Of a stretch of 64,000 nucleotides of DNA, positions 34,598-53,665 are shown piece after piece; positions within the stretch are counted from its first letter, which is position 1, and each line of letters begins with the position of its first letter. This DNA comes from Robertmurraya dakarensis. Its GTDB lineage: Bacteria; Bacillota; Bacilli; Bacillales; Cytobacillaceae. The notes under the pieces are model-generated. The model made no database searches. It was given only the letters and a program-made list of their open reading frames with translations, and had not been told where the DNA came from. Position numbers and translations under genes: made by a program. The DNA is taken from contig NZ_LT707409.1 in the NCBI RefSeq assembly GCF_900156875.1, positions 3,156,909 to 3,220,908 of the forward strand, written 5' to 3'.

Positions 34598-36132
34598 TTA
34601 TTCCCTCACTCCCTTCCTCTCCTTTTCCTTTCGATAATTTACATTCGACCTGCACAATGACATCGCTTCCCACACCTCTTCTTCTGTTATTAGTTCTTCA
34701 CCGCACAGGTCGGAAATCGTTCGTGCAAAGCGGATGATTTTGATTTGGACACGATTGCTCCATTCTCTTTTCATCGCCATCTGCTGCAGCAACTGTCTAA
34801 TTTTCTCTTGCGGAGGACTCGTCTTTGTTAATAATTCATACGGAACCCGGCCATTGCATACTTCATCCCGTAGCGCTCATATTGGCGATTTCTAGCCTCC
34901 ATCACACGGTCTCTTATAACATCGAATTTTTCCCGTTTCGTCTCACTTTCCCTTTCCAGATTCACAGATTGCAAGGAAAGCGTGATGTCGAAGATCACGA
35001 ATTGGTCCTGAGATTCGATTTTGGTAGGACTGAATTTGTTTTGGGGTGCAGGTGCAGTAATAGTTGTTGGATCCCAAATAGCCACATGGACATGGGTTCA
35101 TCGCACCGATTAACAGGAAGGAAGCTGGATACGTAACAATCGACTGAACACGGCTGATCGTCACTTTCCCTGTCTCAATCGGCCGCCTAAGCATATCCAA
35201 TGTTTTCTTAGAAAACTTGGCCATTTCGTCTAAAAATAGTACCCCGCGATGAACTAATGAAATTTCACCTGGTTTGGGATTTTGTCCGCCGCCAATAACC
35301 GAGACACTTGAGGCTGAATGATGCGGGCTTCTGAATGGAGGGATATTGGTTACGCCCGCTTCACTGCCAGCTAATTGATAAAGGCTTATTTTTTCTAACT
35401 GTGCCTCGTTTGATAGTGGCGGTTAAATAGAGGGAAAGGTTTCAGCTAGCAAGCTTTTTCCGCATCCTTCCTGGTGGACCTGTCTAAAAACATGATGCTC
35501 ACCCGCTGCTGCAATTTCCAAGGCACGCTTAGCCAGATCATGGCCAATAATATCGCTGCAGTCTTTACTGAATTGATAAATGGAGTGATCTGACTCAGGA
35601 AGGATATGAAACGGGAGAAGCATTTGTCCTGATAAATGCTGGATGACATCGTGCAAAGAAGAAACATAGACAATCTCTAATCCTTCCATACTGATTTTAG
35701 GAAGACTCGCATCAAAGGGCATATATACACGTTTAAATCCAAGCTTGTTGGCTGTCAATACTGCTGCCAGCAAGCCATCAAAGGGAAGAATCGATCCGTC
35801 TAATGATAAGGCGCCAATAAAACAAGACGAAGCTGGTATGTTTGAAGTGATCACCCCGATACTCTTCAGGATGCCGATCGCCATGGGCAGGTCAAAAATC
35901 GGTCCATTCTTTTTCTGTTCGGACGGTGTAAGATTAACAATCGTTCTTACATCGTTAATTTGGTGACCTAACGAATGCAATGCAACGGTTACGCGCTCCT
36001 TCGATTCGTTCACAGACGCATCGGGCAGCCCACAATGAGAAATGCATCAATTCCTTCCACCGTCTGAACTTCTACTTGAACTCGGTAGCCTTCTACCCCC
36101 TTTAAACCAATACTCATTATTTTTGAAACCAT
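34598..36132 (-). pseudogene. Broken YifB/ComM-family Mg-chelatase-like ATPase
   Basis: The gene begins at ATG 36132 (GGAGCAAAAA ahead) with MVSKIMSIGLKGVEGYRVQVEV, then a frameshift near 36033 and again in the Walker A region near 35470 (remnant GCGKSLLAETFPSI), and others near 35100 and 34830. Pieces align in order to the ~510-aa family: ATSNIPASSCFIGALSLDG region, PHHSASSVSVIGGG and GEISLVHRGVLFLDEMAKF (Walker B), MNPCPCGYLGS zinc-like motif, and the C-terminal lid NRVQIKIIRFARTISDLCG. Intact homologues unwind or branch-migrate DNA during transformation; this copy is clearly dead. Confidence 0.9.
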
Positions 36133-36177: not shown

Positions 36178-36960
36178 TTATGCTTTAAAAATGAGATTTG
36201 GTGATACACCAAAAATTCTTGCCATTTGGCGTTGAGTGAGCCCATTAACGCCTTTTAATTGTCTAAGGAGTTGGTCTCTCTCAATTTTAGGTAGAGTTTT
36301 CACTTGGGGGATTTTGATAGATCCAAGAACTCTTTTTATTTCTTCTCTTGCCTCGTCATCGCTTAATTTTCGACGATTCTCTTCCCATGCTTCAAGACAT
36401 TGATCATGATTGTTCTTTTCATTAAACTCTCTGAACCTTTCCTTTGCTGACAACATGTCCGAGGCAAACATTCTTAAGATAAACTCCTTATCTAGTAACT
36501 GAGGTGGGTACAGAGTCTTGTCATAGTAACCTAAGCAACTGCTCCACTTCCAGTCCTCCATGCAGCTGACCATTCTAGCCTTCAATGGATTTTGATGGAT
36601 GTATCTGATAACGGTTAATAAGTAGGAAACATCTTCGACATTTTCACTTTTAAACCGGTCTTCATATAGATGGCCTGTTGTTCGGTATTTCCAGTTATAG
36701 TAAGATGCATAACTAACAGAGATCCGTTGCATCGTAACGGAAATCGATTCGTCGCCTTCTTTCAATAGGAGATGGACATGATTATTCATCAAACACCAGC
36801 CAAAGACTGTTAGTTCTACTTTCCATTTATATTTCCTAAGGGTATTAAGAAAGGTCTGAAAGTCTTCCACATCGTGAAATATTTCTTGTCTGTTTGCTCC
36901 TCTATAAATAATATGATAGATTCCCGTGCTGCTTTTCAATCGGGGGCCACGAGGCATCAT
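36178..36960 (-). CDS. RAYT: REP-associated tyrosine transposase (Y1_Tnp/HUH family)
   Basis: About 260 aa; ATG at 36960 or 36957 after AGAGGTGATT. The Y1 transposase domain (about 1-140) has YHIIYRGANRQEIF, the HUH-type pair in CLMNNHVHLLLKEG (His-Val-His, about 68-70), and the region around the catalytic Tyr (YASYYNWKYRTTGHLYEDRFKS, VIRYIHQNPLKARM). The C-terminal tail is a helix-turn-helix (GLTQRQMARIFGVSPNLI). RAYTs nick single-stranded REP hairpins and are single-copy, domesticated relatives of IS200 TnpA. REP-like palindromes of one family surround it across 30 kb, including one 380 bp upstream. Appears intact. Confidence 0.88.
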   Translation of the reverse strand: MMPRGPRLKSSTGIYHIIYRGANRQEIFHDVEDFQTFLNTLRKYKWKVELTVFGWCLMNNHVHLLLKEGDESISVTMQRISVSYASYYNWKYRTTGHLYEDRFKSENVEDVSYLLTVIRYIHQNPLKARMVSCMEDWKWSSCLGYYDKTLYPPQLLDKEFILRMFASDMLSAKERFREFNEKNNHDQCLEAWEENRRKLSDDEAREEIKRVLGSIKIPQVKTLPKIERDQLLRQLKGVNGLTQRQMARIFGVSPNLIFKA

Positions 36961-37338
36961 AATCACCTCTTTTTCTAAAAAGATTTGGAGTGGTTAAGGA
37001 AATATGGTTATTCGTATCGATGGAATGAAAAATGAAATGTTAGATAGTAATTGTGAGGATTTTTTTAATATTACAAGAGATTAACAGTAAAAGACAGAAG
37101 TTAGCAGATCAATTAAAGATAAGAACGGTAAGAGTACCAAGTGGTTTGTAGGATTGAGAGGTAGTTTGCCATTTGAAGTCATTATTGTGGGTCGAAGGAT
37201 TGGGATTAAGACCATCATATACCTATCTGCTACATTTTTCACTACTTTTATTTTAAAAATGGTAAGGATGCTTGCTCATCATAACATCAGAAGTGACCTT
37301 TATACAGTAACCCTAAACAGGACTGTTTAATTCTGTTG
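36961..37338. other. 380-bp gap with nothing recognised
   Basis: Between the RAYT start and a REP unit. No frame with a ribosome site and no hairpins. It may hold the RAYT promoter and decayed sequence of the truncated nucleosidase gene. Confidence 0.4.
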
Positions 37339-37858: not shown

Positions 37859-38113
37859 AACTTCACCTACATTTTTTCTTCTATTTTAACATTCCTGTAC
37901 CAGTCTCTTTCACAAATTGGCCCCATCGACTTCTTACTACCTTGAATATGTTTCAATATGAGATACGCCATCGTTTTCATCTACTGAGTAAAGATAGGGA
38001 CGGTACTATGAATATATAATAGAAGAAACACAGTACGAGTACAGCGTCTAACCACGCCGAAAATCTATATCTCTTAACCTAGAAAATTTACATTTTATTT
38101 TCAACCTATTTAC

Positions 38114-38142
38114 TTGGCAAATGCCATATATCATAGTATGAT
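38114..38142 (+). promoter_or_regulatory. Promoter of the TetR-RND operon
   Basis: TTGGCA (38114-38119), 17 bp, TATGAT (38137-38142): a good sigma-A promoter. The operator at 38151 covers the expected start point, and the leader to the tetR gene is about 275 nt. Confidence 0.65.
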
Positions 38143-38150
38143 TTACATGG

Positions 38151-38165
38151 TGACCGACTGGTCGT
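38151..38165. promoter_or_regulatory. TetR-type operator, RND operon copy
   Basis: TGACCGACTGGTCGT, with GACC-GACT-GGTC as a palindrome, lies just after the -10. A near-identical site (complement of 47511-47525) precedes the TolC-family gene. Confidence 0.7.
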
Positions 38166-38281
38166 TTTTTTATACTTTAAGAAAGTTTAACTTCTCTAAA
38201 GGATTAAAGTATAAGAAAAGACATAGATTTCCACCATTATTGGTGACAAATCGTGTTTTTCTAATGAGAAAAATGAATTGT

Positions 38282-38352
38282 CAGTTGGTATGCTTGAGCA
38301 AGCCTTTATTCCTGTTCTTTGGAATAACAGCGAAGGGAAAGTGTACCAACTG
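38282..38352 (+). ncRNA. Structured leader element before tetR (unknown RNA)
   Basis: CAGTTGGTA (38282-38290) pairs with TACCAACTG (38344-38352). Inside are GCTTG-AG-CAAGC (38292-38303) and TTATTCC-TGTTCTTT-GGAATAA (38307-38328). Together they form a closed three-way-junction-like fold within the predicted 5' leader. I recognise no known riboswitch. It could also be a DNA-level palindromic insertion. Confidence 0.4.
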
Positions 38353-38424
38353 CTATTCTGCATTATTTTAATAGGTTTGACACGCATGATTAGATACAAC
38401 ATTCATCATAAGGAGGGTTGATTC

Positions 38425-39294
38425 TTGACTGATAAGAGACTCATGATTTTAGAGCAAGCGATGATCCTGTTTGCAACGAAAGGCTATCATTCTACTTCGA
38501 TGCAGGAAGTGGCTGAGCAGGCTGGTGTCTCGAAAGGCGGTCTTTATTCCTATTTTTCTTCTAAAAATGAATTATTAATTGAAATCTACCGCTATTATTA
38601 TCAAAGCATCAGAGAGCAAATGAATCATTACGAAAATATGAAACTTTCTGACCCGAGAGAACGTCTGCAATTACAGCTAAAGGTTTATATCGAAGGACTA
38701 TTGAGCAGGAAAGAGTTCATTCTCATGCATTTGCGTGAAAATGTGAATCATAGTGCCGAATTAGGAGACTTTCTTACTGCAATTTATATCGAGACGTTCG
38801 AATGGTATGAGAGAACATTTAAAGATATCTATGGAGAAAGAATTGCTCCATATACGACAAACCTCGTCATCATCTTTAGTGGAATGATCGAATCCTATTT
38901 AAAGACATTGTTTGTCAGCACGGCTGATCATGATATCGGTGATCTGACGACATTTCTTATTTCACGATTGGACGACCTTGCAGAAGGGATGATTGCGAAA
39001 AAAGAAAGTTTGCCTATTCCCCCTCTTCAGTTCGTAACAGATCCGATGCATTGCAGAGATTCTTCTTTAAAGGACCAGCTTCAAGGTTTATTAGATAAGA
39101 TTGAAAAGCTCGTCGGACATGCCAAGCTTGATAAAGATACGAAGAAAGACTGCATGGATTCGGTTGAATTTTTAAAAGAAGAAGCGAAGCAAGAACGCCC
39201 AAAGAGAGTCGTCTTTCAAGGATTATTGAACTTTCTTGAGGTAATTCCTGAAACAAAGCCTGTTTCAGATAAAATAATGAAACTATTAGACTAA
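38425..39294 (+). CDS. TetR/AcrR-family regulator of the RND efflux operon
   Basis: 289 aa from a TTG, with AAGGAGGGTTGATTC ahead. The N-terminal TetR HTH is clear (ILEQAMILFATKGYHSTSMQEVAEQAGVSKGGLYSYFSSKNELL, about 8-51). The ligand-binding part is longer than usual, with an extra helical C-terminal ~75 residues (KDQLQGLLDKIEKLVGHAKL ... VVFQGLLNFLEVIPETKP). It starts the operon with the fusion protein and RND pump and probably represses it through TGACYGACTGGTCR-type sites here and before the TolC-family gene. Confidence 0.9.
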   Translation: MTDKRLMILEQAMILFATKGYHSTSMQEVAEQAGVSKGGLYSYFSSKNELLIEIYRYYYQSIREQMNHYENMKLSDPRERLQLQLKVYIEGLLSRKEFILMHLRENVNHSAELGDFLTAIYIETFEWYERTFKDIYGERIAPYTTNLVIIFSGMIESYLKTLFVSTADHDIGDLTTFLISRLDDLAEGMIAKKESLPIPPLQFVTDPMHCRDSSLKDQLQGLLDKIEKLVGHAKLDKDTKKDCMDSVEFLKEEAKQERPKRVVFQGLLNFLEVIPETKPVSDKIMKLLD

Positions 39295-39327
39295 GAAACC
39301 ATTCCTATAAGGAGGAAAGACATATTA

Positions 39328-40731
39328 ATGAAGAAGCGAAATCGTAATTTGGTGATTACTGCCGCCTTATCATTTGCTATTGCGTTGAGTGGCTGCTCAT
39401 CCAAGGATGCTGCAGGTGATGCGAAGGTTGAGAAAGAAACCCCTGTGCAGGTGGAGAACATCACCAAAGGAAACTTAACGGTTAAAAATGAAATCATTGC
39501 AAAAGCGATGTCTGACTCATCTGTAGATGTGATGCCAAAGATGATCGGCGAGATTACAGAAATCAATGTTAAAAAAGGCGACAAGGTGAAAAAAGGCCAA
39601 GTGTTAGCCGTGCTGGACAACACCGACCAACAGCTCGCTGTACAGATGCAGCAAACAGCTGGAAGAAACGCGCAAAGTCAATATGAGCAAGCATTAGTTT
39701 CGAAAAAGCAAGCCGAAACAGCGATCAGCAATGCGAAGTTGGCGCTGAAGAACGCTGAATTGAATTTGCAAAAAGCGAAGGATGGCCAGGCAACTGGAAT
39801 CGATAATTCTGATTTCGGGTTAGAGCAAGCGCAAATCAGCTTACAAGATGCGCAAGTGAACTATGACCGCATGAAAGCCTTGTTTGATTCTGGTGCTGCT
39901 TCGAAACAGCAGGTTGAGCAGGCGAAAACAGCTTTAGATCAAGCAAAAATTGGACTTGAGCAAGCGAAATTGCAAAAAAGCAATGCTGAAAAGCAGACAG
40001 ATATCGAACTTGCCGAGCAAGGTGTCAAGCAAGCAAAAGTGGGCTTAACGAACGCACAGCAGCAATTAGAGCTTGCCAATGTCAGCGTCAAGCAGGCACA
40101 AGTTGGTATTGACTCTAACAAATTGCAGGTTCAGCAAGCACAGCTTCAATTAGATGATTCGAAAATTGTCGCCACTGCTGCCGGAGAAATCACTGATATT
40201 AATCATGTCGTTGGTGATGTTGTTTCAAACAGCGCACCATTCACAACGATTGTAGACTTAAACAAAATGGTCGTAGAAGCAAAGATCAGTGCAAATCAGC
40301 TTCCTGCTTTTAAAAATGGCCAAAAGATTCAAGTGGAAATCCCCTCTTTAAATGAAACGTTAACAGCGACTGTTTCTTATATCTCTAATATGGCAGATGA
40401 AGGCGGATTCTATTTAATGGAAGCAACTCTTCCTAACAAGGATGGGAAAATCAAGCACGGGATGATTGCGAAAGTGATTAATGAGTCTACCGTTGTTCAA
40501 GATTCATTGATTGTGCCTACGAATGCTGTGATTGAAAAAGGTGATGAAACGTATATTTATGTCGTGAAGGACGGAGTTGCCGTTCAGACAGACGTCACGA
40601 TTATCCGCGCGCAGACTGATTTTACCGCGATTGAAGGAGAAGGCTTGTCTGAAAGTACGGTAATTGTTTCGAAAGGACAAAATACATTAAGCGATGGCAA
40701 CAAAGTTAAGATCATTGAGGAGGAAGAATAG
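39328..40731 (+). CDS. RND efflux membrane-fusion lipoprotein (AcrA/HlyD-like adaptor)
   Basis: 467 aa. A lipoprotein signal ends in IALSGCSS (Cys about 24), so it is anchored outside the membrane. Barrel and lipoyl parts (ITEINVKKGDKVKKGQVLAVLDN, about 73-95) flank an unusually long alpha-helical hairpin (about 110-285) rich in Gln, Ala and Lys, with heptads such as VNYDRMKALFDSGAASKQQVEQAK. The beta-barrel follows (KIVATAAGEITDINHVVGDVV). It links an RND pump to an outer partner in Gram-negatives. Its stop codon abuts the pump's GTG. Confidence 0.92.
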   Translation: MKKRNRNLVITAALSFAIALSGCSSKDAAGDAKVEKETPVQVENITKGNLTVKNEIIAKAMSDSSVDVMPKMIGEITEINVKKGDKVKKGQVLAVLDNTDQQLAVQMQQTAGRNAQSQYEQALVSKKQAETAISNAKLALKNAELNLQKAKDGQATGIDNSDFGLEQAQISLQDAQVNYDRMKALFDSGAASKQQVEQAKTALDQAKIGLEQAKLQKSNAEKQTDIELAEQGVKQAKVGLTNAQQQLELANVSVKQAQVGIDSNKLQVQQAQLQLDDSKIVATAAGEITDINHVVGDVVSNSAPFTTIVDLNKMVVEAKISANQLPAFKNGQKIQVEIPSLNETLTATVSYISNMADEGGFYLMEATLPNKDGKIKHGMIAKVINESTVVQDSLIVPTNAVIEKGDETYIYVVKDGVAVQTDVTIIRAQTDFTAIEGEGLSESTVIVSKGQNTLSDGNKVKIIEEEE

Positions 40732-43700
40732 GTGAAAATTATTGAAACAGCCGTCAAACGCCCCGTAGGCCTAATCATGATCTTCCTCGGGATCTTGGCG
40801 CTAGGCTTTGTTTCACTTCGAAGTCTTGCTATCGACCTTTATCCTGAAATTGATCTTCCGATTGCGGTTGTCGCTACGACCTATCAAGGGGCAGCTCCCG
40901 AGGAAGTTGAAAAACTGGTCAATGAACCGTTAGAAGGTGCGTTGTCGTCGATTCAAGGGATTGATAGTATTCAATCACAGGCGATGGCCAACTCTTCTAT
41001 GGTTATTATGATGTTCCAATCTGGAACCAATTTAGATAACGCGCTTTTAGAGGTACGGGAAAAAGTCGATGGCGTAAAGAGCATGCTGCCTGAGAGCGCC
41101 AACGACCCTTCCGTCCTCCGCTTCGATCCACAGCAAATGCCCGTGATGTGGATCAGTTTAACGGGTGATGATCCCGAGCGTTTAATGAATATTGCGGAAG
41201 ATACAGTTTCCCCTTTGTTTGAACGTTCTGAAGGTGTTGCCTCTGTAACGATTGAAGGCGGAAAAACGCGTGAAATTCAAGTCGAGCTGAACCAAGCGCT
41301 CATGGCCCAGTACGGCGTTTCGACTTCACAGGTCATCCAAGCCTTGAATTCAGAAAATAGTTCTGGTTCTGCCGGATCGATTACAAAAGGATCACAGGAT
41401 TTACAGATCCGTATTGATGGAGAATTTGAATCGGTTGAAGACATTGCCAATATGGCGATCAAATTGCCTTCCGGTTCTGAAATTACACTGAACGACATCG
41501 GCGTGATTAACGATACGTTCAAGGATGAAACGACAAATGCTTATGTAAACCAGCAGCAAGCACTTGTGCTTTCGATCATGAAGCAATCTGACAGCAATAC
41601 GATTGCCGTTGCAGATGGCATGTACAAAGCGATGGAAGATGCGCAAGAAGTTCTTCCTGAAGATGTTCATCTTGAGATGGTTATGGATACGTCCACGTTT
41701 ATCCGCACATCGATCAGCTCGGTTACACAAAGTATGGTTCTGGCTGCATTGATTTCGATTGTCGTTGTGTTTGTGTTTTTACGAAGCATTCGTTCTTCGA
41801 TTATTATTGGTGTGGCGATTCCGATTTCACTTATTTCCACGTTTGTGATGATGTATTTCTCAGGACAAACGTTAAACATCCTCTCCATGGGTGGACTTGC
41901 ACTCGGAGTTGGGATGATGGTGGATAACTCGATCGTTATTTTGGAAAACATCGTAAAGTATCGAAAAGAAGGTCATTCGATCCTCGATTCAGCGATCAAG
42001 GGTGCGAAGGAACTGTCAGGAGCGATATTGGCTTCGACGTTAACAACTGTTGTTGTATTTTTACCGATTGTCTTCTTAGAAGGTATGGCGTCGGATTTAT
42101 TTAGACCGTTGGCATTATCAGTATCGTTCTCGCTGCTTGCTTCCTTAATTGTGGCGATTACCCTCGTACCGATGATGACTTCAAAGCTTTTAAACAAGGA
42201 AAAAGAATTCCAAGAGAAAAAGCAGACTGCGTTTGATCGACTATTTGCTGGCTTTGAGAATTTTTATAAAAAGATGTTGAATTTCTCGTTAAAGCATCGT
42301 AAGTCTACGGTTGGGATTGTATTTTTATCAATGGTAGCAGCGGTGTTAATGGCAACACAAATTGGGGCAACATTCGTTCCTGATTCAGACCAAGGTCAGT
42401 TGAATATCAATGTCGAGACACCAAGTGGTTCATCGATTGAGGAAACGGAAGCAACGGTTGCTGCGATTGAAAAGAAAATGGAACCTTTTAAAGACAGCAT
42501 TCAGATGAACTTTGTCTCTGTCGGATCAAGCGGCATGGGAATGAGCTCTGGTTCTAATACAGCGAGCTTCATGATTCAGATGGTACCGAAAGCAGAACGT
42601 GAAATTACTACAGCTGAATTAGCGAAGGAACTAGCTACAGCTGTTGAGGATATTCCTGGTGCTGAGATTACTGTTTCTGAAGCATCAGCAGGCTTGGGAA
42701 CAGGTTCCCCTATCCAGGTCAGCATTAATGGACAGGATCAAAAAGTGTTAGAAGAGCTTTCACAGCAAGTCGTTTGGCTGCTTGAAGATGTGGATGGACT
42801 GCAAAATATTGAAACAAGTGCATCTGATACACAGCCGGAGATTCATGTCGAGGTCAACCGTCAAGTGGCTTCACAGTACGGCTTAACGTATCAGCAAATC
42901 ATGTCTGAAGTACAGCTTGCTTTCAATGGACAAACGGCGACACGATTCCGTGAAGCTGGAGATGAAATTGATATTAAGGTAATTTTACCTGAAGAACAGC
43001 GTACTTCCATTAGCGACCTTGAAACGATGTTATTGACTACTCCATCTGGAGCTACGGTGCCATTGTCATCAGTGGCCGATCTTGTTCAAGTTCAAGGACC
43101 GTCTGTGATTTCACGTGACAATCAGCAGCGTCAAGTGAACGTAACAAGTGATATTGAAGGTTCTGATATTCGCGGTGCAAGTCTCGCTGTATCAGAAGCG
43201 TTAAGCACGATGAACTTCCCTGATGGGTATACGTACAGCTTTGGCGGACAATCTGAGGATATGATGGAGGCCTTCGCAGATTTAGCGATCGCGTTAGTCT
43301 TCTCGATTTTCTTAGTCTACACGGTCATGGCGGTACAGTTTGAGTCATTCTTGTATCCGTTTGTTATCATGTTCTCGCTGCCAACAGCGATGGTTGGGAT
43401 TTCGTTTGGATTATTCGTTACGGGAGTTCCATTGAGTGTGCCCGCCTTCATTGGGATTATCATGCTCGCCGGTATTGTTGTAAACAACGCGATTGTGTTA
43501 GTTGACTATATCAACATTCTGCGAGCACGCGGTATGGAACGGACTGAAGCAATCTTGAAGGCCGGGCCTTCTCGTTTGCAGCCGATCTTAATGACGACAT
43601 TAACAACCGTGCTTGGGATGGTTCCGCTGGGCTTAGCGCTTGGTGAAGGTGCCGAGGCACAGCAGCCGCTCGCGGTTGTGATTATCTTTGGTTTATCGAT

Positions 43701-43839
43701 TTCGATGTTCTTTACCCTTCTCTTCGTACCAGTGATGTATACGTATTTGGATGGGCTGTCCAACCGTATGAAGAACTTTAAATGGTTTAAGCGTAAGAAG
43801 AAGAAGGTTGACGTGATTGAAGAAGATGTAACGATGTAA
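40732..43839 (+). CDS. RND-family efflux pump (AcrB/SwrC-like)
   Basis: 1035 aa from a GTG (GAGGAGGAAGAATAG ahead), full length, with 12 membrane helices in two repeats each followed by a large extracellular loop. Proton-relay region in TM4: GGLALGVGMMVDNSIVILENI with Asp-Asn in place of the AcrB Asp-Asp. TM10-12 include FIGIIMLAGIVVNNAIVLVDYI and LTTVLGMVPLGLALGEGAEAQQPLAVVIIFG. SwrC of B. subtilis, which exports surfactin, is the closest well-known relative. It works with the adaptor next to it; substrates here are unknown. Confidence 0.93.
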   Translation: MKIIETAVKRPVGLIMIFLGILALGFVSLRSLAIDLYPEIDLPIAVVATTYQGAAPEEVEKLVNEPLEGALSSIQGIDSIQSQAMANSSMVIMMFQSGTNLDNALLEVREKVDGVKSMLPESANDPSVLRFDPQQMPVMWISLTGDDPERLMNIAEDTVSPLFERSEGVASVTIEGGKTREIQVELNQALMAQYGVSTSQVIQALNSENSSGSAGSITKGSQDLQIRIDGEFESVEDIANMAIKLPSGSEITLNDIGVINDTFKDETTNAYVNQQQALVLSIMKQSDSNTIAVADGMYKAMEDAQEVLPEDVHLEMVMDTSTFIRTSISSVTQSMVLAALISIVVVFVFLRSIRSSIIIGVAIPISLISTFVMMYFSGQTLNILSMGGLALGVGMMVDNSIVILENIVKYRKEGHSILDSAIKGAKELSGAILASTLTTVVVFLPIVFLEGMASDLFRPLALSVSFSLLASLIVAITLVPMMTSKLLNKEKEFQEKKQTAFDRLFAGFENFYKKMLNFSLKHRKSTVGIVFLSMVAAVLMATQIGATFVPDSDQGQLNINVETPSGSSIEETEATVAAIEKKMEPFKDSIQMNFVSVGSSGMGMSSGSNTASFMIQMVPKAEREITTAELAKELATAVEDIPGAEITVSEASAGLGTGSPIQVSINGQDQKVLEELSQQVVWLLEDVDGLQNIETSASDTQPEIHVEVNRQVASQYGLTYQQIMSEVQLAFNGQTATRFREAGDEIDIKVILPEEQRTSISDLETMLLTTPSGATVPLSSVADLVQVQGPSVISRDNQQRQVNVTSDIEGSDIRGASLAVSEALSTMNFPDGYTYSFGGQSEDMMEAFADLAIALVFSIFLVYTVMAVQFESFLYPFVIMFSLPTAMVGISFGLFVTGVPLSVPAFIGIIMLAGIVVNNAIVLVDYINILRARGMERTEAILKAGPSRLQPILMTTLTTVLGMVPLGLALGEGAEAQQPLAVVIIFGLSISMFFTLLFVPVMYTYLDGLSNRMKNFKWFKRKKKKVDVIEEDVTM

Positions 43840-43897
43840 GGATTTATGGCTATTACAACCGAGATTAGATAGAGAGAGATTTTTATAGAGAAAAGGA

Positions 43898-43934
43898 AGA
43901 TCCTGTGGAGGTTGACTCTGCGGGGTCTTTTTTG
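43898..43934 (+). terminator. Terminator of the TetR-RND operon
   Basis: AGATCCTGTGGAG ... CTCTGCGGGGTCT followed by TTTTTTG. Confidence 0.7.
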
Positions 43935-44135
43935 TGTTTGGAGAGGGTGAGGACACACTTTAAGCCCACCAAAAGTAGGTTTATAATGTTGTTTTTTCCA
44001 TAAAATCACATATTAATGTCTAATACTTTCGTTATAGTTATGGTTTTTCCAATTATTATAATAAATTAAACTAAAAGTAGTTTTTTAGAGCTATAATAAC
44101 CATTTATTGTAACTCCCGCCCTTAAAAACCTGCGA
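43935..44135. other. 200 bp of AT-rich intergenic sequence between convergent genes
   Basis: Lies between the RND operon terminator and the SLH gene terminator. No frame, repeat or site recognised. Confidence 0.4.
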
Positions 44136-44142
44136 TCAATAT

Positions 44143-44170
44143 AAAAAGCCCCGTTCCTCAGAACAGGGCT
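44143..44170 (-). terminator. Terminator of the SLH protein gene
   Basis: On the minus strand, AGCCCTGTTCT-GAGG-AACGGGGCT followed by TTTTTAT. Confidence 0.85.
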
Positions 44171-44176
44171 CCTCTC

Positions 44177-45778
44177 TTATTGAACTTCAGCCGCTTCGAT
44201 CTCGGCTTGCATTTCTGCTTCCATTAATTCCATGAATTCTGCATAAGTGATAACATCGGCCTTATTTGGCTCAGACACCTCTACATCTCCGTTGATATTT
44301 GATTTTTTCAAATCATATAGTAAAGATAAGCCTAACTTTTCTTCTTCCATTTTAAAATCAACGTTTAAATCCATAACATCATAAACAATGTAATCATCTT
44401 CATTGATGAACACATACTCGTCAAATGCGTTAATGCTGAATGTACTGTTAAGTCCTACAAGTACTTCATCGATGTTAATTAAAGCTAGCTGCTCTTTGAA
44501 TAGCGCAACATCTTCAGCTGTTAAGCCTAATGCTTCAGCGTACTCTGGGTCTTCAAGCAATTCAACCAATTGCGGTAATGTGCTTGCGAAAAGAGTTTTT
44601 ACAAATGGCTCTAAGCTTTCATTTGTTAATTCGAATTTCACAACTGTTTCTGCATCCACATCAGATGGGACTTCAACTTCACTTGGGTCAACCACTTTAT
44701 AGTATTGGTTTGCAAAATCATCTAAGAATAGGTTGTTGATTGCTAGACCTAGTTCGTTTTGAAGGTTCATGTTCATGGTTGGAACCACTGGCTGTCCTTC
44801 AAGCTCAGCTAACTCTTCAAAATCAAACTCGATGAACTTCCCGTTGATATCTTCTGGTAATGGGAAAAGAGGACTTTGCGGTAGCTTAATCCACATTTTT
44901 TCTTCTGTCATTACCATTGGCATGTTGAATGTTGCGCCAACCTCACCTTTTAATGTCAAACCAAGGTCTGCTTCCATCACCATTGGGTCTTTCTGATATG
45001 TACCAGAAATATCAATTTGAATGTCTTCTAAAAGTGACACAAGTCCAGTTGCTTCTGGATCATTTTTCAAAGAAGCTGGTAAGTTAATACCTAGGTTCAT
45101 GTTGCCTTCGTACTCATATGTTTCGATTGCTACTTCGTTCGCATATACTTCTTTTAAGAAGTCAGCCAACGGACCGTCTTCAACATTGTCTAGTGCTCTT
45201 GCAAGGAATGTTACAAATTGTGCTCTCGTTGTTGGCTTAAACGGTTGGAACGTATGGTCTTCGTAACCTGTTGTGATTTGATAAGCTAAAATCGCATCAA
45301 TTTCCTTGTATGCATAGAAGCTCTTTTTTACATCTTTAAATGATGCTGAACCATTTCCTTCAAGTTCAAATGCGTTGGCAATGATGATCGCCATTTGCGC
45401 ACGAGTTAACGGCTTGTTCGGCTGGAACTTCCCTTTGTTACCTTGCATGATTCCCGCTTCTGTAATCGCGGCAATTTCATTGTAAGCATGGAAGTTCTTA
45501 TTAATATCTTTGTAGTCTACTGGCTTTGGATTTTCCGTGTCCAGGTCAAGGCCTCTAGCTAAAATAATCGCAGCTTGTGCTCTTGTAACGGGTTTGTTCG
45601 GACGGAATGTTCCATCGTCATACCCATTAATGACACCTTCATCGGTAAAACGGTAAATTTCTTCAGCAGCCCAGAAGTCCTTCGACACATCGGTAAATGA
45701 CTGAGCAGCGCTTGCTGTTGGAATCATTAATGCAAAAATAACTGCAAAAACGATTGCCATCAATCCTGATTTCTTCAT
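44177..45778 (-). CDS. S-layer-homology (SLH) surface protein with a lipid-carrier-like C-terminal domain
   Basis: 533 aa from the ATG at 45778 (AGAGGAGGAGAACC ahead). A signal peptide ends at ASAA. Three SLH repeats follow (about 25-205): FTDVSKDFWAAEEIYRFTDE, FHAYNEIAAITEAGIMQGN and FYAYKEIDAILAYQITTGY, each with (P)TRAQ.A..(L/I)AR. SLH domains bind pyruvylated wall polysaccharide. The remaining ~320 aa is a beta-rich region (DIQIDISGTYQKDPMVMEADL, MTEEKMWIKLPQ) resembling DUF6612/LolA-type folds. It lies between the RND operon and the TolC-family gene, though it reads from its own promoter. Confidence 0.88.
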   Translation of the reverse strand: MKKSGLMAIVFAVIFALMIPTASAAQSFTDVSKDFWAAEEIYRFTDEGVINGYDDGTFRPNKPVTRAQAAIILARGLDLDTENPKPVDYKDINKNFHAYNEIAAITEAGIMQGNKGKFQPNKPLTRAQMAIIIANAFELEGNGSASFKDVKKSFYAYKEIDAILAYQITTGYEDHTFQPFKPTTRAQFVTFLARALDNVEDGPLADFLKEVYANEVAIETYEYEGNMNLGINLPASLKNDPEATGLVSLLEDIQIDISGTYQKDPMVMEADLGLTLKGEVGATFNMPMVMTEEKMWIKLPQSPLFPLPEDINGKFIEFDFEELAELEGQPVVPTMNMNLQNELGLAINNLFLDDFANQYYKVVDPSEVEVPSDVDAETVVKFELTNESLEPFVKTLFASTLPQLVELLEDPEYAEALGLTAEDVALFKEQLALINIDEVLVGLNSTFSINAFDEYVFINEDDYIVYDVMDLNVDFKMEEEKLGLSLLYDLKKSNINGDVEVSEPNKADVITYAEFMELMEAEMQAEIEAAEVQ

Positions 45779-46063
45779 GGTTCTCCTCCTCTTTACTAAG
45801 TAATCCTCAATAACCCTATTCATTTAATATTAGGAAAATGCTAGAAAAATAGAATTCTAGTTATTATTTTCCATTTATGGGATATTCCATAGAAAATTAT
45901 AGCATTCTCTAGGCTATTTTGAATGTGAAAAGCAGTCTTTTTTTGGAAAATAGTATTTAACTCCTATATTTTTCCCCTAATATGGCTTTTTAATTACTAT
46001 TTTTGTAGGGGAAACTGTAAAAGGTGAGCAGGATTTTCATGTACCTGCCCACCTCTCTAGTTA

Positions 46064-47398
46064 TTATGCACCTGTCTGAATGACCCCTGCTTCAAGCATT
46101 TCAACTTGCTTTGTTAGCAAGAAGTAAGATTGCTTCGCACCTTCATAAGCGATTCTTGCCTGGTCTACCGATGTTGATGCCAATTCGTAATTAATACGTG
46201 AAATCAGCCCTAGTTCATACTGCTTTCGTAAAATCTCGTAATCTTCTTTTGCATATTGATAATCAAGCTCAGCATCTTCTAAAGCCTGGTACCCGACTGC
46301 TACGTCATGGTATAGGGTGCGGATGGCTTCTTCGAGATCAAGTTTGAGTTGTACTAATTTTTCCTTTTCTAGTTCAACATTAAGGTCTTGCTCTGTTTTT
46401 TGAAATGAAGTAGAATCGTCATCCTCGTATACTTGGTCGCGCGTATACTCAGCCAGTGAGATCGTTTCTAATTGCTTTTTGTAGACAAATGAATTTTCTA
46501 CAAGTTCACTAGTTTCTGTTTCTTGTTCTAGTAATTCAAGGTTATCTAGTTCCATGGGTTCAAGCTCGAAGGCAGCATGGTAGCCAATTCCAAGGTCTAA
46601 TGTGTACTCCACCATATCCTTTGTATATTGCTCTTCGGCTTTTTTAAGATCTGTTTTCTGTCTTAATAGATCGCGTCTATTCTTATTGTAATCGTCAAGA
46701 GAGACCATCCCTAAGTCATATTGCAGCTTCAGTACAGCCATTTCTTTTTCTTTAGACTGATATGCTTGTCTTTGCAGGCCAAGCTGGTCTTTCGTCATGA
46801 GTAATTGACTGAAGTTGGCTGTTGCAGTCATTTTTACGGATTCTTCAAATTCAGCTTCGTTATAAGCGAGTGTTGCTTTACCGGATTTTAAGTTTTCAAG
46901 AGCGTCTTCTAACCCTTTGATTTTATCATCAATTAGTTCCAGCTGATTTTGAATGGCTAAACGTTCTTGAAACGTTCTGCCTCCTCCACTACTTTGCATA
47001 TCCCTAAGATCTTCTCTAGTATCCTCTAAATCTTTAATATCTCTTTCCAGGTCACGGAAGTTATGATTAGCGTCCCCATACTGACTTTCTAATATCTCAG
47101 TTTGATATTTCATTTCGATCAACATTGGACTATTGTTTAATGCACGTTCAACCGCTTCTTCCAGTGAAAGACTGTCGAGTTCCTCTAATTCCAAACCTGT
47201 GCCTTCTTCAGTGGTTTCCTCTGTAGTATCTTCTGTGGTCTCCTCATTCTCAACGTTCTCATTTTCGTTCTCGTTTTCGTTCTCAACCACTTCTTCGATT
47301 TCAGTTTCTTCCGGTTCCGTCCCATCTGCCAAAGCAGCAGTAGACATAGCCGGCATCGCTAACATAAATGCTAGCCCTAACGCAGTATATTTTTTCAT
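46064..47398 (-). CDS. TolC-family (outer-membrane-factor-like) exported protein in a monoderm
   Basis: 444 aa from the ATG at 47398 (GGAGAAGATAAT ahead). A signal peptide ending near AALADG is followed by a Glu/Asn/Thr-rich low-complexity segment (ENENENENENVENEE), then SLEEAVERALNNSPMLIEMKY, the standard opening of TolC repeats. Long coiled-coil helices follow, with paired TolC-type motifs such as LKLQYDLGMVSLDDYNKNR and LRKQYELGLISRINYELAS. TolC normally forms the outer-membrane duct of RND pumps; this cell type has no outer membrane, so its place is presumably in the wall. It shares an operator with the RND operon. Confidence 0.87.
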   Translation of the reverse strand: MKKYTALGLAFMLAMPAMSTAALADGTEPEETEIEEVVENENENENENVENEETTEDTTEETTEEGTGLELEELDSLSLEEAVERALNNSPMLIEMKYQTEILESQYGDANHNFRDLERDIKDLEDTREDLRDMQSSGGGRTFQERLAIQNQLELIDDKIKGLEDALENLKSGKATLAYNEAEFEESVKMTATANFSQLLMTKDQLGLQRQAYQSKEKEMAVLKLQYDLGMVSLDDYNKNRRDLLRQKTDLKKAEEQYTKDMVEYTLDLGIGYHAAFELEPMELDNLELLEQETETSELVENSFVYKKQLETISLAEYTRDQVYEDDDSTSFQKTEQDLNVELEKEKLVQLKLDLEEAIRTLYHDVAVGYQALEDAELDYQYAKEDYEILRKQYELGLISRINYELASTSVDQARIAYEGAKQSYFLLTKQVEMLEAGVIQTGA

Positions 47399-47473
47399 AT
47401 TATCTTCTCCTATGTAACTACCAATTGGAAAACAATATCTATCTCCAAAGGTAAATATTAGATTCATAGCATT

Positions 47474-47502
47474 ATTTTATCATATTTACCTATCCAATAA
47501 GA
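47474..47502 (-). promoter_or_regulatory. Promoter of the TolC-family gene
   Basis: On the minus strand, TTGCTT, 17 bp, TATGAT, about 80 bp upstream of the start codon. The TetR-type operator lies just upstream of the -35. Confidence 0.5.
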
Positions 47503-47510
47503 AGCAATAA

Positions 47511-47525
47511 GGATGACCAGTCAGT
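47511..47525. promoter_or_regulatory. TetR-type operator, TolC-family gene copy
   Basis: On the minus strand TGACTGACTGGTCAT, matching the RND operon site TGACCGACTGGTCGT at 13 of 15 positions. Confidence 0.65.
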
Positions 47526-47553
47526 CATTTTTTTGTGGTAAATTAAACCAAAA

Positions 47554-47650
47554 GGTACCAGGTACCGCAAAAGCGGTACCTGGTACCATCCGTGGACAGT
47601 GTCCTTTTGGAACGGACAAATGCCCCGCTTTCAGCGGGGCATTTGTTCGT
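47554..47650. repeat. GGTACC-type palindromic repeat, copy 1, with adjoining GC-rich hairpin
   Basis: GGTACCAGGTACCGC-AAAA-GCGGTACCTGGTACC is a perfect 15-bp stem (47554-47587). It is followed by CCGTGGACAGTGTCC and a second hairpin, AAATGCCCCGCT-TTC-AGCGGGGCATTT (47619-47645). The GGTACC/GTGGACAGTGTC parts recur at 53616. It lies between the lipoprotein gene end and the TolC-gene promoter. Confidence 0.8.
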
Positions 47651-47683
47651 AAGTATGTGTGGAGAATTTATATAATTTATAAT

Positions 47684-48109
47684 TTAATCTAATGTTGCTT
47701 GCTGTTGGATTTTTCCGTCTTTGACGACGATGATGTCGATGGTGTGGTCTGTGTATTCTTCTTTAATCACTGCACCGTACTTTTCGATGACTTCTTTAGC
47801 AGATAATTCCTGTTCTTCGTTTATTTCGATGTCGACGTTAACTGCTTGCTGATCTCCTCCTACAACTTGAACCATCACGCTCTCAATCCCTTTTTCTGCT
47901 TCAAGTTTCTGAGTTAAATCTTGGTCGCTTTCTAAAGTTGTATCAGACTTTTGATCATTTTCCTCTTGTTCTTTACCTTCCTCTGCCGGCGTTTCTTGTG
48001 CTGGATCTTCTTCCGCAGCGTCCTCGGCGCCGTCGTTCCCACAGCCTGAAATCATAATTAATGCCAGCAAAGCCACCAACATCATCATCCATTTATTCTT
48101 ATGTAACAT
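47684..48109 (-). CDS. Lipoprotein of unknown function
   Basis: 141 aa from the ATG at 48109 (AGAGGATATGAG ahead); an upstream in-frame start (48163) would spoil the signal peptide. Signal KWMMMLVALLALIM with lipobox ISGC, then an acidic linker (about 25-65, rich in Glu, Asp, Ala), then a compact alpha/beta domain (VMVQVVGGDQQAVNVDIEIN ... AKEVIEKYGAVIKEEY ... IDIIVVKDGKI). This resembles small Bacillus spore or membrane lipoproteins in layout, but I recognise no family. A TTGATCAA palindrome lies 150 bp upstream. Confidence 0.7.
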   Translation of the reverse strand: MLHKNKWMMMLVALLALIMISGCGNDGAEDAAEEDPAQETPAEEGKEQEENDQKSDTTLESDQDLTQKLEAEKGIESVMVQVVGGDQQAVNVDIEINEEQELSAKEVIEKYGAVIKEEYTDHTIDIIVVKDGKIQQQATLD

Positions 48110-48260
48110 CTCATATCCTCTTTTCTTCCAATTTTTGTGCAACTCTAGATTGGATTTTAGCAAAGGAGCTGGTTGAAGTAAAGAGACTACTTGCCTCTTA
48201 AAGAGGACCTATGAAGAAGGTTGGGGGGCTTTTGGCCAGCCTAAAATACGAACATAGCCC

Positions 48261-48283
48261 TTGATCAAACGATTGATCAAACT
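48261..48283. promoter_or_regulatory. TTGATCAA palindrome, copy 1 (upstream of the lipoprotein gene)
   Basis: TTGATCAAACGATTGATCAA: TTGATCAA and its complement around ACGA. An identical site lies at 59092. No T-tract of a terminator follows. Confidence 0.6.
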
Positions 48284-48351
48284 AAAAATACTTCGGAATA
48301 TACCCTTTTCTTTACCCAATGGTCATACCATTCAAACCTCGATCTAACAAT

Positions 48352-53615: not shown

Positions 53616-53665
53616 TGTCCACGAGCGGTACCAGGTACCACTCGTGGACAGTGTCTTTCTGAGAC
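53616..53665. repeat. GGTACC-type palindromic repeat, copy 2
   Basis: TGTCCACGAG-CGGTACCAGGTACCA-CTCGTGGACA: a perfect 10-bp outer stem (53616-53625/53641-53650) holding GGTACCAGGTACC, then GTGTCTTTCTGAGACG. It shares both the GGTACC core and the GTGGACAGTGTC block with the copy at 47554. It lies just upstream of the SAM riboswitch. Confidence 0.8.

Follow-up and report, generated by a model that had tools for sequence, protein, structure and literature searches.

A stretch of 64,000 nucleotides from Robertmurraya dakarensis (contig NZ_LT707409.1, positions 3,156,909 to 3,220,908; hereafter the window) carries, as far as its sequence indicates, two operator-like sites of one TetR type. One stands at the promoter of an operon made of a TetR-family regulator gene (tetR), an adaptor gene and an RND permease gene; the other lies just upstream of a separate gene for a TolC-family protein (tolC). 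An HAE-type permease, an adaptor with lipoyl/barrel domains and an RLS hairpin, and an OEP-family duct are co-encoded here with a shared operator-like site, their common regulation being a prediction. Comparison with relatives suggests that these parts work as a three-part pump. We consider that the locus probably encodes a TetR-controlled RND efflux system of monoderm Bacillales, accompanied by an S-layer homology (SLH) protein and having as exit duct a TolC-family protein devoid of beta-barrel.

Two operator-like sites of one TetR type

The first site, O1 (TGACCGACTGGTCGT, 38151-38165, plus strand), abuts the expected start point of the tetR operon, 8 nucleotides after the -10 element of a candidate promoter (38114-38142, plus strand; TTGGCA-17-TATGAT, 10/12 in the consensus scan), and is one mismatch away from the consensus of relatives. 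Three promoter-like sequences were found by the scan of this stretch for 1.9 expected by chance; in two relatives, G069 and G030, the gap between the -10 element and the operator at tetR is 11 nucleotides, counted by eye. The second site, O2 (TGACTGACTGGTCAT, 47513-47527, minus strand), is located 115 nucleotides upstream of the tolC start, and its first 14 bases fit the consensus of relatives exactly. The original prediction, made on this DNA from its letters, had pointed out two similar sites; both are present and identical at 13 of 15 positions, the second starting two bases away from the 47511 then given.

Dinucleotide shuffles of the window, a weak chance test, gave at least two matches at three mismatches or fewer in 10 cases out of 100. 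In the whole genome (5,481,671 bases) the exact matches to TGACYGACTGGTCRT number two, O1 and O2 only, and the same is found for TGACYGACYGGTCR. Allowing one mismatch to TGACYGACYGGTCR adds a single genomic match, which is intragenic (in an aspartyl-tRNA synthetase-like gene, by eye); the reversed control pattern gave 3. The looser pattern TGACNNACTGGTCRT at one mismatch is not enriched (5 genomic matches, 13 for its control). We also scored the window with a weight matrix built, window excluded, on 29 distinct tetR-associated sites from relatives; these sites were pre-selected at two mismatches at most from the consensus, and the matrix is therefore not independent of it. O2 comes first in the window (47511-47530, minus strand, 24.8 bits) and O1 second (38148-38167, plus strand, 20.8 bits); 2 Mb of Markov sequence gave 17.4 bits at most. 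O2 is a better match to the motif than the cognate O1. Eight other stretches of the same genome were scored too: their best site, at 17.5 bits, stands between two divergent genes (L008, G000:C11:3441062), and may be a weak third site of the genome, either a possible third target or chance.

The motif is widespread upstream of related regulators. TetR relatives at E<=1e-20 occur in 133 of the 151 genomes of the family; from these we took 30 tetR loci, the best-scoring relatives and not a random draw, and left out two whose flanks were cut (L034 and L045), which makes 28 with the window. Within 350 bp upstream of tetR, TGACYGACYGGTCA is found at one mismatch at most in 24/28 of them (23/27 without the window), 18 being exact, and none of 5,600 mononucleotide shuffles of the 370-bp upstream regions came within one mismatch of it. 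The window tetR has both the TetR_N domain and the operator TGACYGACYGGTCA at its own promoter. We examined 20 further tetR regions of relatives, 19 of which belong to genomes where no TolC match was found. The site is present at one mismatch at most in 17 of the 20 regions, and 8 of these 17 also contain an RND gene; five divergent tetR/RND regions even carry two or three operator copies between, or at the start of, both genes. The prediction of a shared operator-like site, of the type that this regulator belongs to, is thus borne out by the genome-wide uniqueness of the pair, by the consensus of relatives and by the first two ranks in the matrix scan.

On the tolC side, the ribosome-binding site and the signal peptide place the start of the gene probably at 47398. 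A terminator-like hairpin with GGTACC repeats (47554-47587, minus strand) and a further inverted repeat (47612-47650) lie between tolC and the lipoprotein gene that precedes it; because they separate the two genes, the tolC promoter is expected within about 155 bp that include O2. There, a loose scan without chance control gave two candidates. P1 (47542-47570, minus strand; TTGCGG-17-TTTAAT, with TGn before the -10) has O2 14 nucleotides downstream of its -10, and its -35 would fall inside the terminator-like hairpin; the alternative P2 (47474-47503, minus strand; TTCTTA-18-TAAAAT, with TGn) has O2 10 nucleotides upstream of its -35. P1 would lead to ordinary repression, P2 to repression or activation.

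Other elements were seen in these control regions. The 275-nucleotide leader of the tetR operon (38150-38424, plus strand) folds strongly into a long hairpin (-72.6 kcal/mol, z -3.8 against shuffles); Rfam gave no family match within 38000-48300, this leader included; it may have a regulatory role or be a small insertion. On either side of the likely -10 region of tolC are the arms of a perfect 10-bp inverted repeat, AGGTAAATAT (47449-47458 and 47482-47491, 23 nucleotides between the arms), a possible site for a second regulator. As for the hairpin at 47554-47587, it is formed by GGTACCTGGTACC repeats, also present at 53627-53639; exact copies occur in 7 of the 145 loci compared, all from this genome, five of them being the same place.

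Pump parts and their linkage in relatives

The operon starts with tetR (38425-39294, plus strand), which has a TTG start preceded by AAGGAGG and encodes a regulator of 289 amino acids (TetR_N, E 4.2e-19). The adaptor, or membrane fusion protein (39328-40731, plus strand; 467 amino acids), is a lipoprotein with the lipobox LSGC, scoring 183 bits with the RND_mfp subfamily. The permease (40732-43839, plus strand; 1035 amino acids) matches ACR_tran over its full length (residues 3-1006, E 1.4e-267, 891 bits), MdtB being its closest solved chain (E 6.2e-135). Opposite to them, tolC (46064-47398, minus strand), with AGGAGA upstream, encodes a secreted protein of 444 amino acids of the TolC/OEP family, made of a signal peptide, an acidic linker and a helical body (OEP, E 2e-11). 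The frames across the locus are all open and the gene calls tetR, adaptor, RND and OEP/TolC-family hold.

Relatives of the TolC-like protein share only 25-36% identity, and the second OEP repeat alone scores (residues 359-455 of the long open reading frame), both repeats scoring in the paralogue. In a scan of named genomes the window protein found no relatives, and five aligned relatives found two. For gene order we relied on 19 TolC-like genes, that of the window and those of 18 fetched regions, which are strong matches (E 2.7e-11 or better); weaker ones (e.g. G347, G210, G166) stand outside this set, and G130, G407, G307 and others were judged spurious, being in other proteins or of short coverage.

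For 16 of the 19 an adaptor-RND pair stands at 15 kb or less, in varied arrangements: tolC-[operator]-tetR-adaptor-RND in Niallia endozanthoxylica (G069), [palindromic operator]-tetR-adaptor-RND-tolC in G272, tolC-adaptor-RND in G195, G420, G459, G498, G306, G331 and G520, adaptor-RND-tolC in G154, adaptor-RND-tetR-tolC in G458, and tolC divergent from adaptor-RND in G187. The distance to the pair reaches 6 kb in Halalkalibacter nanhaiisediminis (G152) and about 12 kb in G030 and G138. The unlinked ones are those of G224, whose adaptor is on another contig, of G295, and the second TolC-like gene of the genome under study (L083, G000:C11:2722704-2723993). The latter has sugar and wall-polymer genes as neighbours; neither an adaptor nor an RND gene nor an operator at two mismatches or fewer is present in the 20 kb examined.

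In the model of the adaptor, residues 99-278 form a hairpin (helices 99-151, 161-187, 193-222 and 225-278) with, at the tip, the RLS motif RMKALFDSGAAS (residues 181-192; pattern R-x3-L-x6-S). The predicted template modelling score (pTM) is 0.29, a low global confidence; the predicted local distance difference test score (pLDDT) is at least 75 in 14 of the 18 blocks of ten residues that make up 101-280. Each arm of the modelled hairpin counts about 87 residues, from which a reach of about 13 nm would follow by arithmetic at 1.5 A per residue. In an alignment of 18 adaptors the hairpin is present in the 15 from tolC-bearing loci and missing from the three from relatives without TolC match (285-295 amino acids); 13 of the 15 long adaptors have the RLS motif within it and none of the three short ones. 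This motif has been proposed as a TolC-binding element, and exceptions were described (PMC4446572).

We then counted both features in 397 genomes of the order, an adaptor frame of at least 370 amino acids standing for the hairpin and the adaptor cut-off being E<=1e-18. A long adaptor is present in 63 genomes, of which 27 have a TolC-family gene, at 15 kb or less in 21. Another 24 have a short adaptor only (288-307 amino acids), and none of these has a TolC-family gene. The remaining 310 have no adaptor at this cut-off, and 7 of them have a TolC-family gene, several being doubtful. For the presence of TolC, long- and short-adaptor genomes differ with a Fisher p of 4e-5, shared ancestry being uncorrected. 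Within the family (151 genomes) TolC is found in 4/5 genomes with a long adaptor and 0/6 with a short one. The count leaves out additional fragments of one gene and some extra rows for genomes that it already includes; 20 of 68 OEP-type rows were removed as lying inside the adaptor itself, OEP rows below cut-off were kept out, and five strong profile rows were added. In at least one of the 27 TolC-positive long-adaptor genomes (G244) the gene counted as TolC-family may be another adaptor; among the 7 adaptor-less ones several matches are in frames of 378-1153 amino acids that may not be TolC, and G458 does have an adaptor, found only locally. Hairpin and duct thus seem, from these comparisons, to go together, one way. 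Linkage in relatives and co-occurrence with the long adaptor argue in the same sense as the original prediction, which had tied the TolC-like protein to the adaptor and the RND pump.

How could a TolC-family protein be used by a bacterium with a single membrane? The model of its mature part (three-row alignment; mean pLDDT 71, pTM 0.35) is made of helices only, with no strand, and the helices are joined by helical hairpins; in TolC they are joined by barrel strands. Compared by Foldseek with solved structures, it has as top matches CmeC, OprM and TolC with a probability of 1.00 and E from 3e-4, the TM score of 0.35 or less indicating a poor global superposition. Provisionally, the outer-membrane beta-barrel is absent according to this model. 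No Omp85 match was found in the 18 tolC-bearing genomes (this one and 17 relatives) by a search whose control was detected in 7 of 14 named genomes; this agrees with the monoderm background that had been assumed. A membrane barrel is then neither predicted by the model nor, because no Omp85 was found in the 18 genomes, insertable the usual way. The accompanying statement that TolC ducts belong only to outer membranes was out of date, since a paper of 2022 (PMC8809574) had described TolC-like proteins in monoderm Firmicutes.

Two neighbours of tolC are likely to be accessory envelope proteins. The SLH protein (44177-45823, minus strand, likely start 45778) combines three SLH domains with a C-terminal domain that is also present in an orthologue located beside the adaptor-RND pair of G138; this orthologue matches over the full length (E 1.7e-207; 57% identity over the C-terminal part). 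Around other tolC genes, SLH-protein matches have the strength of a domain match; they occur in 10/18 tolC regions (18.5-20 kb), as well as beside the window tolC, against 0/20 tetR regions (13.8-20 kb). We do not press this contrast because the 20 regions come from 19 genomes without TolC match plus one region of G138, genera which may lack S-layers. The lipoprotein gene upstream of tolC (47684-48163, minus strand, likely start 48106; lipobox ISGC) has homologues in 6/18 tolC regions (G459, G420, G224, G498, G306 and G331, all genomes of one family), just downstream of RND or tolC. Family searches gave no match over the curated cut-off for the lipoprotein and for the C-terminal domain of the SLH protein, and no significant relative of this domain was found among solved structures. 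The C-terminal part of the G138 orthologue (L145:1756-3327) weakly matches DUF6612 (E 0.0025, below cut-off); a lipid-binding role of the domain is only a guess.

Further upstream of the operon, a Y1 (IS200-like) transposase gene (36178-36966) might move the GGTACCTGGTACC repeats, and a Mg-chelatase/ChlI (YifB/ComM-like) gene (34828-36013, minus strand), split into several frames, is likely a pseudogene.

Shared control, private control or no pump at all

If the parts act together, TetR would keep both promoters repressed and release them on binding a toxic amphiphilic ligand. The adaptor, anchored by its lipid, would join the RND trimer tip-to-tip with a helical TolC-like trimer, and the latter would lead the substrate across the inner wall in the direction of the S-layer. 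The SLH protein and the lipoprotein would likely help by holding or orienting the duct. Extended to other species, the proposal would be that S-layer monoderms build a trans-wall efflux machine out of an RND pump, a long-hairpin adaptor and a barrel-less helical duct held by an SLH protein and a lipoprotein, under one TetR switch acting at two operators; we put this general form forward as a tentative possibility.

Several observations weigh against a TetR-controlled three-part system as we describe it. No promoter came out of the strict scan of the stretch from the terminator to tolC, for 1.2 expected by chance, and the sense of the regulation could therefore go either way; of the positions originally predicted, O1 at the expected operon start and O2 shortly before tolC stand, and the tolC promoter that O2 was said to precede is uncertain. 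An O2-type site within one mismatch was found at none of the 18 other tolC genes, a single one (G224) having it at two, and the two closest relatives, G069 and G030, have the site at tetR only. For TetR relatives that are more distant and come from tolC-bearing genomes, the site is found at one mismatch at most in 6/19 cases and at two at most in 12/19 (L110, with cut flanks, left out). Nine of the 17 site-bearing tetR regions mentioned above show no RND match in the stretch examined; by eye, four of these (L129, L133, L135 and L138) have one MFS exporter adjoining tetR and, in three cases, an ABC-type permease a few kb off. TolC is also missing where it could be expected: tolC was found in 0/6 other genomes of the genus (two about 80% complete), and 36 of the 63 long-adaptor genomes have no detected TolC gene, so that either the hairpin has other uses or the duct was missed. 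In G047, a member of the family where no TolC gene was found either, a long-adaptor-RND pair comes with a one-mismatch operator and with neither tetR nor tolC in 20 kb (L144, G047:C26). Lastly, the global confidence of both models is low, and the whole of the evidence is computational.

The predicted co-control of pump and duct has to be narrowed accordingly to the two sites of this genome, and we do not retain conserved co-control of tolC through O2 as a rule valid in general. The O2 wiring looks lineage-specific: judging from the relatives, the lineage of the window appears to have gained an operator of its own for tolC, or to have kept one lost elsewhere. If there is co-control in relatives, a common operon would account for it. 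As to the motif, these comparisons indicate that the TetR proteins associated with it stand beside exporters of several kinds, RND pumps being only one of them, which hints at a broader set of exporter regulators with a common DNA code.

It may be that the TolC-like protein serves this pump and that O2 does not work for this TetR, being a chance site or the site of another TetR of like specificity. The lack of such a site at the other tolC genes and of a strong promoter beside O2 would fit this, as would the occurrence of the same motif, in relatives, at TetR genes next to other kinds of exporters. The genome does encode a second TetR relative (G000:C10, E 3.5e-22), with a weak 13.3-bit site in its region, and the perfect inverted repeat flanking the tolC -10 region could serve another regulator. 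However, O2 matches the consensus exactly, outranks the cognate site and is one of the two exact sites in 5.48 Mb, the only other site within one mismatch of TGACYGACYGGTCR being intragenic; we hence find a non-working O2 rather unlikely. Still less likely, in our opinion, is that the TolC-like protein is no pump part but a secreted coiled-coil protein of the wall or S-layer, or takes part in the export of polysaccharides or proteins, its closeness to the pump being fortuitous or due to a shared envelope-stress control. The second TolC-like gene, surrounded by wall-polymer and sugar genes (UDP-glucose 4-epimerase and glycerophosphotransferase-like open reading frames by eye), speaks in favor of such a role, like the TolC-like gene of G295, also without a nearby pump, the six long-adaptor genomes in which the TolC-family gene stands outside the 15 kb around the adaptor, and the predicted lack of a barrel. 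This has to be set against the linkage of 16/19 TolC-like genes to adaptor-RND pairs, the retention of the RLS motif, and the finding of TolC-family genes with long adaptors and in 0/24 short-only genomes. The absence of tolC from the six other genomes of the genus and its patchy spread in the family (5/151 genomes, of which one, G130, is a spurious partial match) could suggest that the whole locus was acquired from another bacterium, is not used and persists by chance; with all frames open, a consensus-perfect O2, protein relatives that are other members of the order, and no Omp85 in the genomes tested, we judge it very improbable.

The proposed TetR-controlled system, with its duct and pump sharing a type of operator, gives a regulatory reason to treat the two as one system. 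To this is added a one-way comparative rule, no duct being found in the 24 genomes with short adaptors only, and a locus that is compact and testable. A barrel-less duct, if true, bears on the evolution of TolC and on whether efflux can get past a thick wall and S-layer. If the trans-wall machine were real too, the tripartite principle would need no outer membrane, and the barrel would be a dispensable add-on.

Comparison with known efflux systems

With AcrAB-TolC and MexAB-OprM the system shares an RND permease, an adaptor with a lipoyl hairpin and RLS motif, and a duct of the OEP family; these systems also have a TetR-family local repressor, like the one proposed here. It differs from them by the absence of outer membrane and of predicted beta-barrel. 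The hairpins of MexA and AcrA are shorter than that modelled here. A TetR gene next to an RND gene is known in a Gram-positive from the surfactin exporter YerO-YerP (SwrC) of B. subtilis. A layout like that of YerO-YerP, tetR and RND being divergent, exists in six regions of relatives (L124-L126, L131, L132 and L134), each with the operator, and no adaptor or TolC match was found in these six. YerP has been named as involved in surfactin secretion (PMC8277102).

For the lipoprotein, a functional analogy, with no homology claimed, may be drawn with the E. coli lipoprotein YbjP, which is found in the outer membrane in association with TolC (PMC13082787), the lipoprotein here being likewise a putative accessory of a TolC-family protein. 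Regarding the adaptor, a 2015 review indicated that the very large hairpins of some Gram-positive adaptors are hard to rationalise as mere bridges (PMC4446572).

The closest known systems are those of Stubenrauch et al. (2022, PMC8809574), who described TolC-like proteins in monoderm Firmicutes, many of them encoded in one operon with the two remaining pump components; their examples always come with S-layer or putative S-layer genes, and for the C. difficile protein the authors noted an omission in the barrel. The locus under study belongs to this monoderm TolC/S-layer type by its genes, having no Omp85 and an SLH protein beside tolC, the S-layer itself being putative; like the proteins described there, its duct is a secreted OEP-family protein linked to adaptor and RND genes in an SLH/S-layer context. 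The word TetR does not occur in the main text of that paper, the legend of its gene-order figure naming a regulatory-protein class. Among the matches listed from open-licence titles and abstract openings, we found no operator shared between an RND operon and a separate tolC of a monoderm. TolC-like ducts in single-membrane bacteria are already known; the new detail is the shared switch and the extra partners. Compared with the examples in that main text, tolC is here a separate unit with its own TetR-type operator-like site, its product shows no strands in the model, and a lipoprotein and an SLH protein recur as partners.

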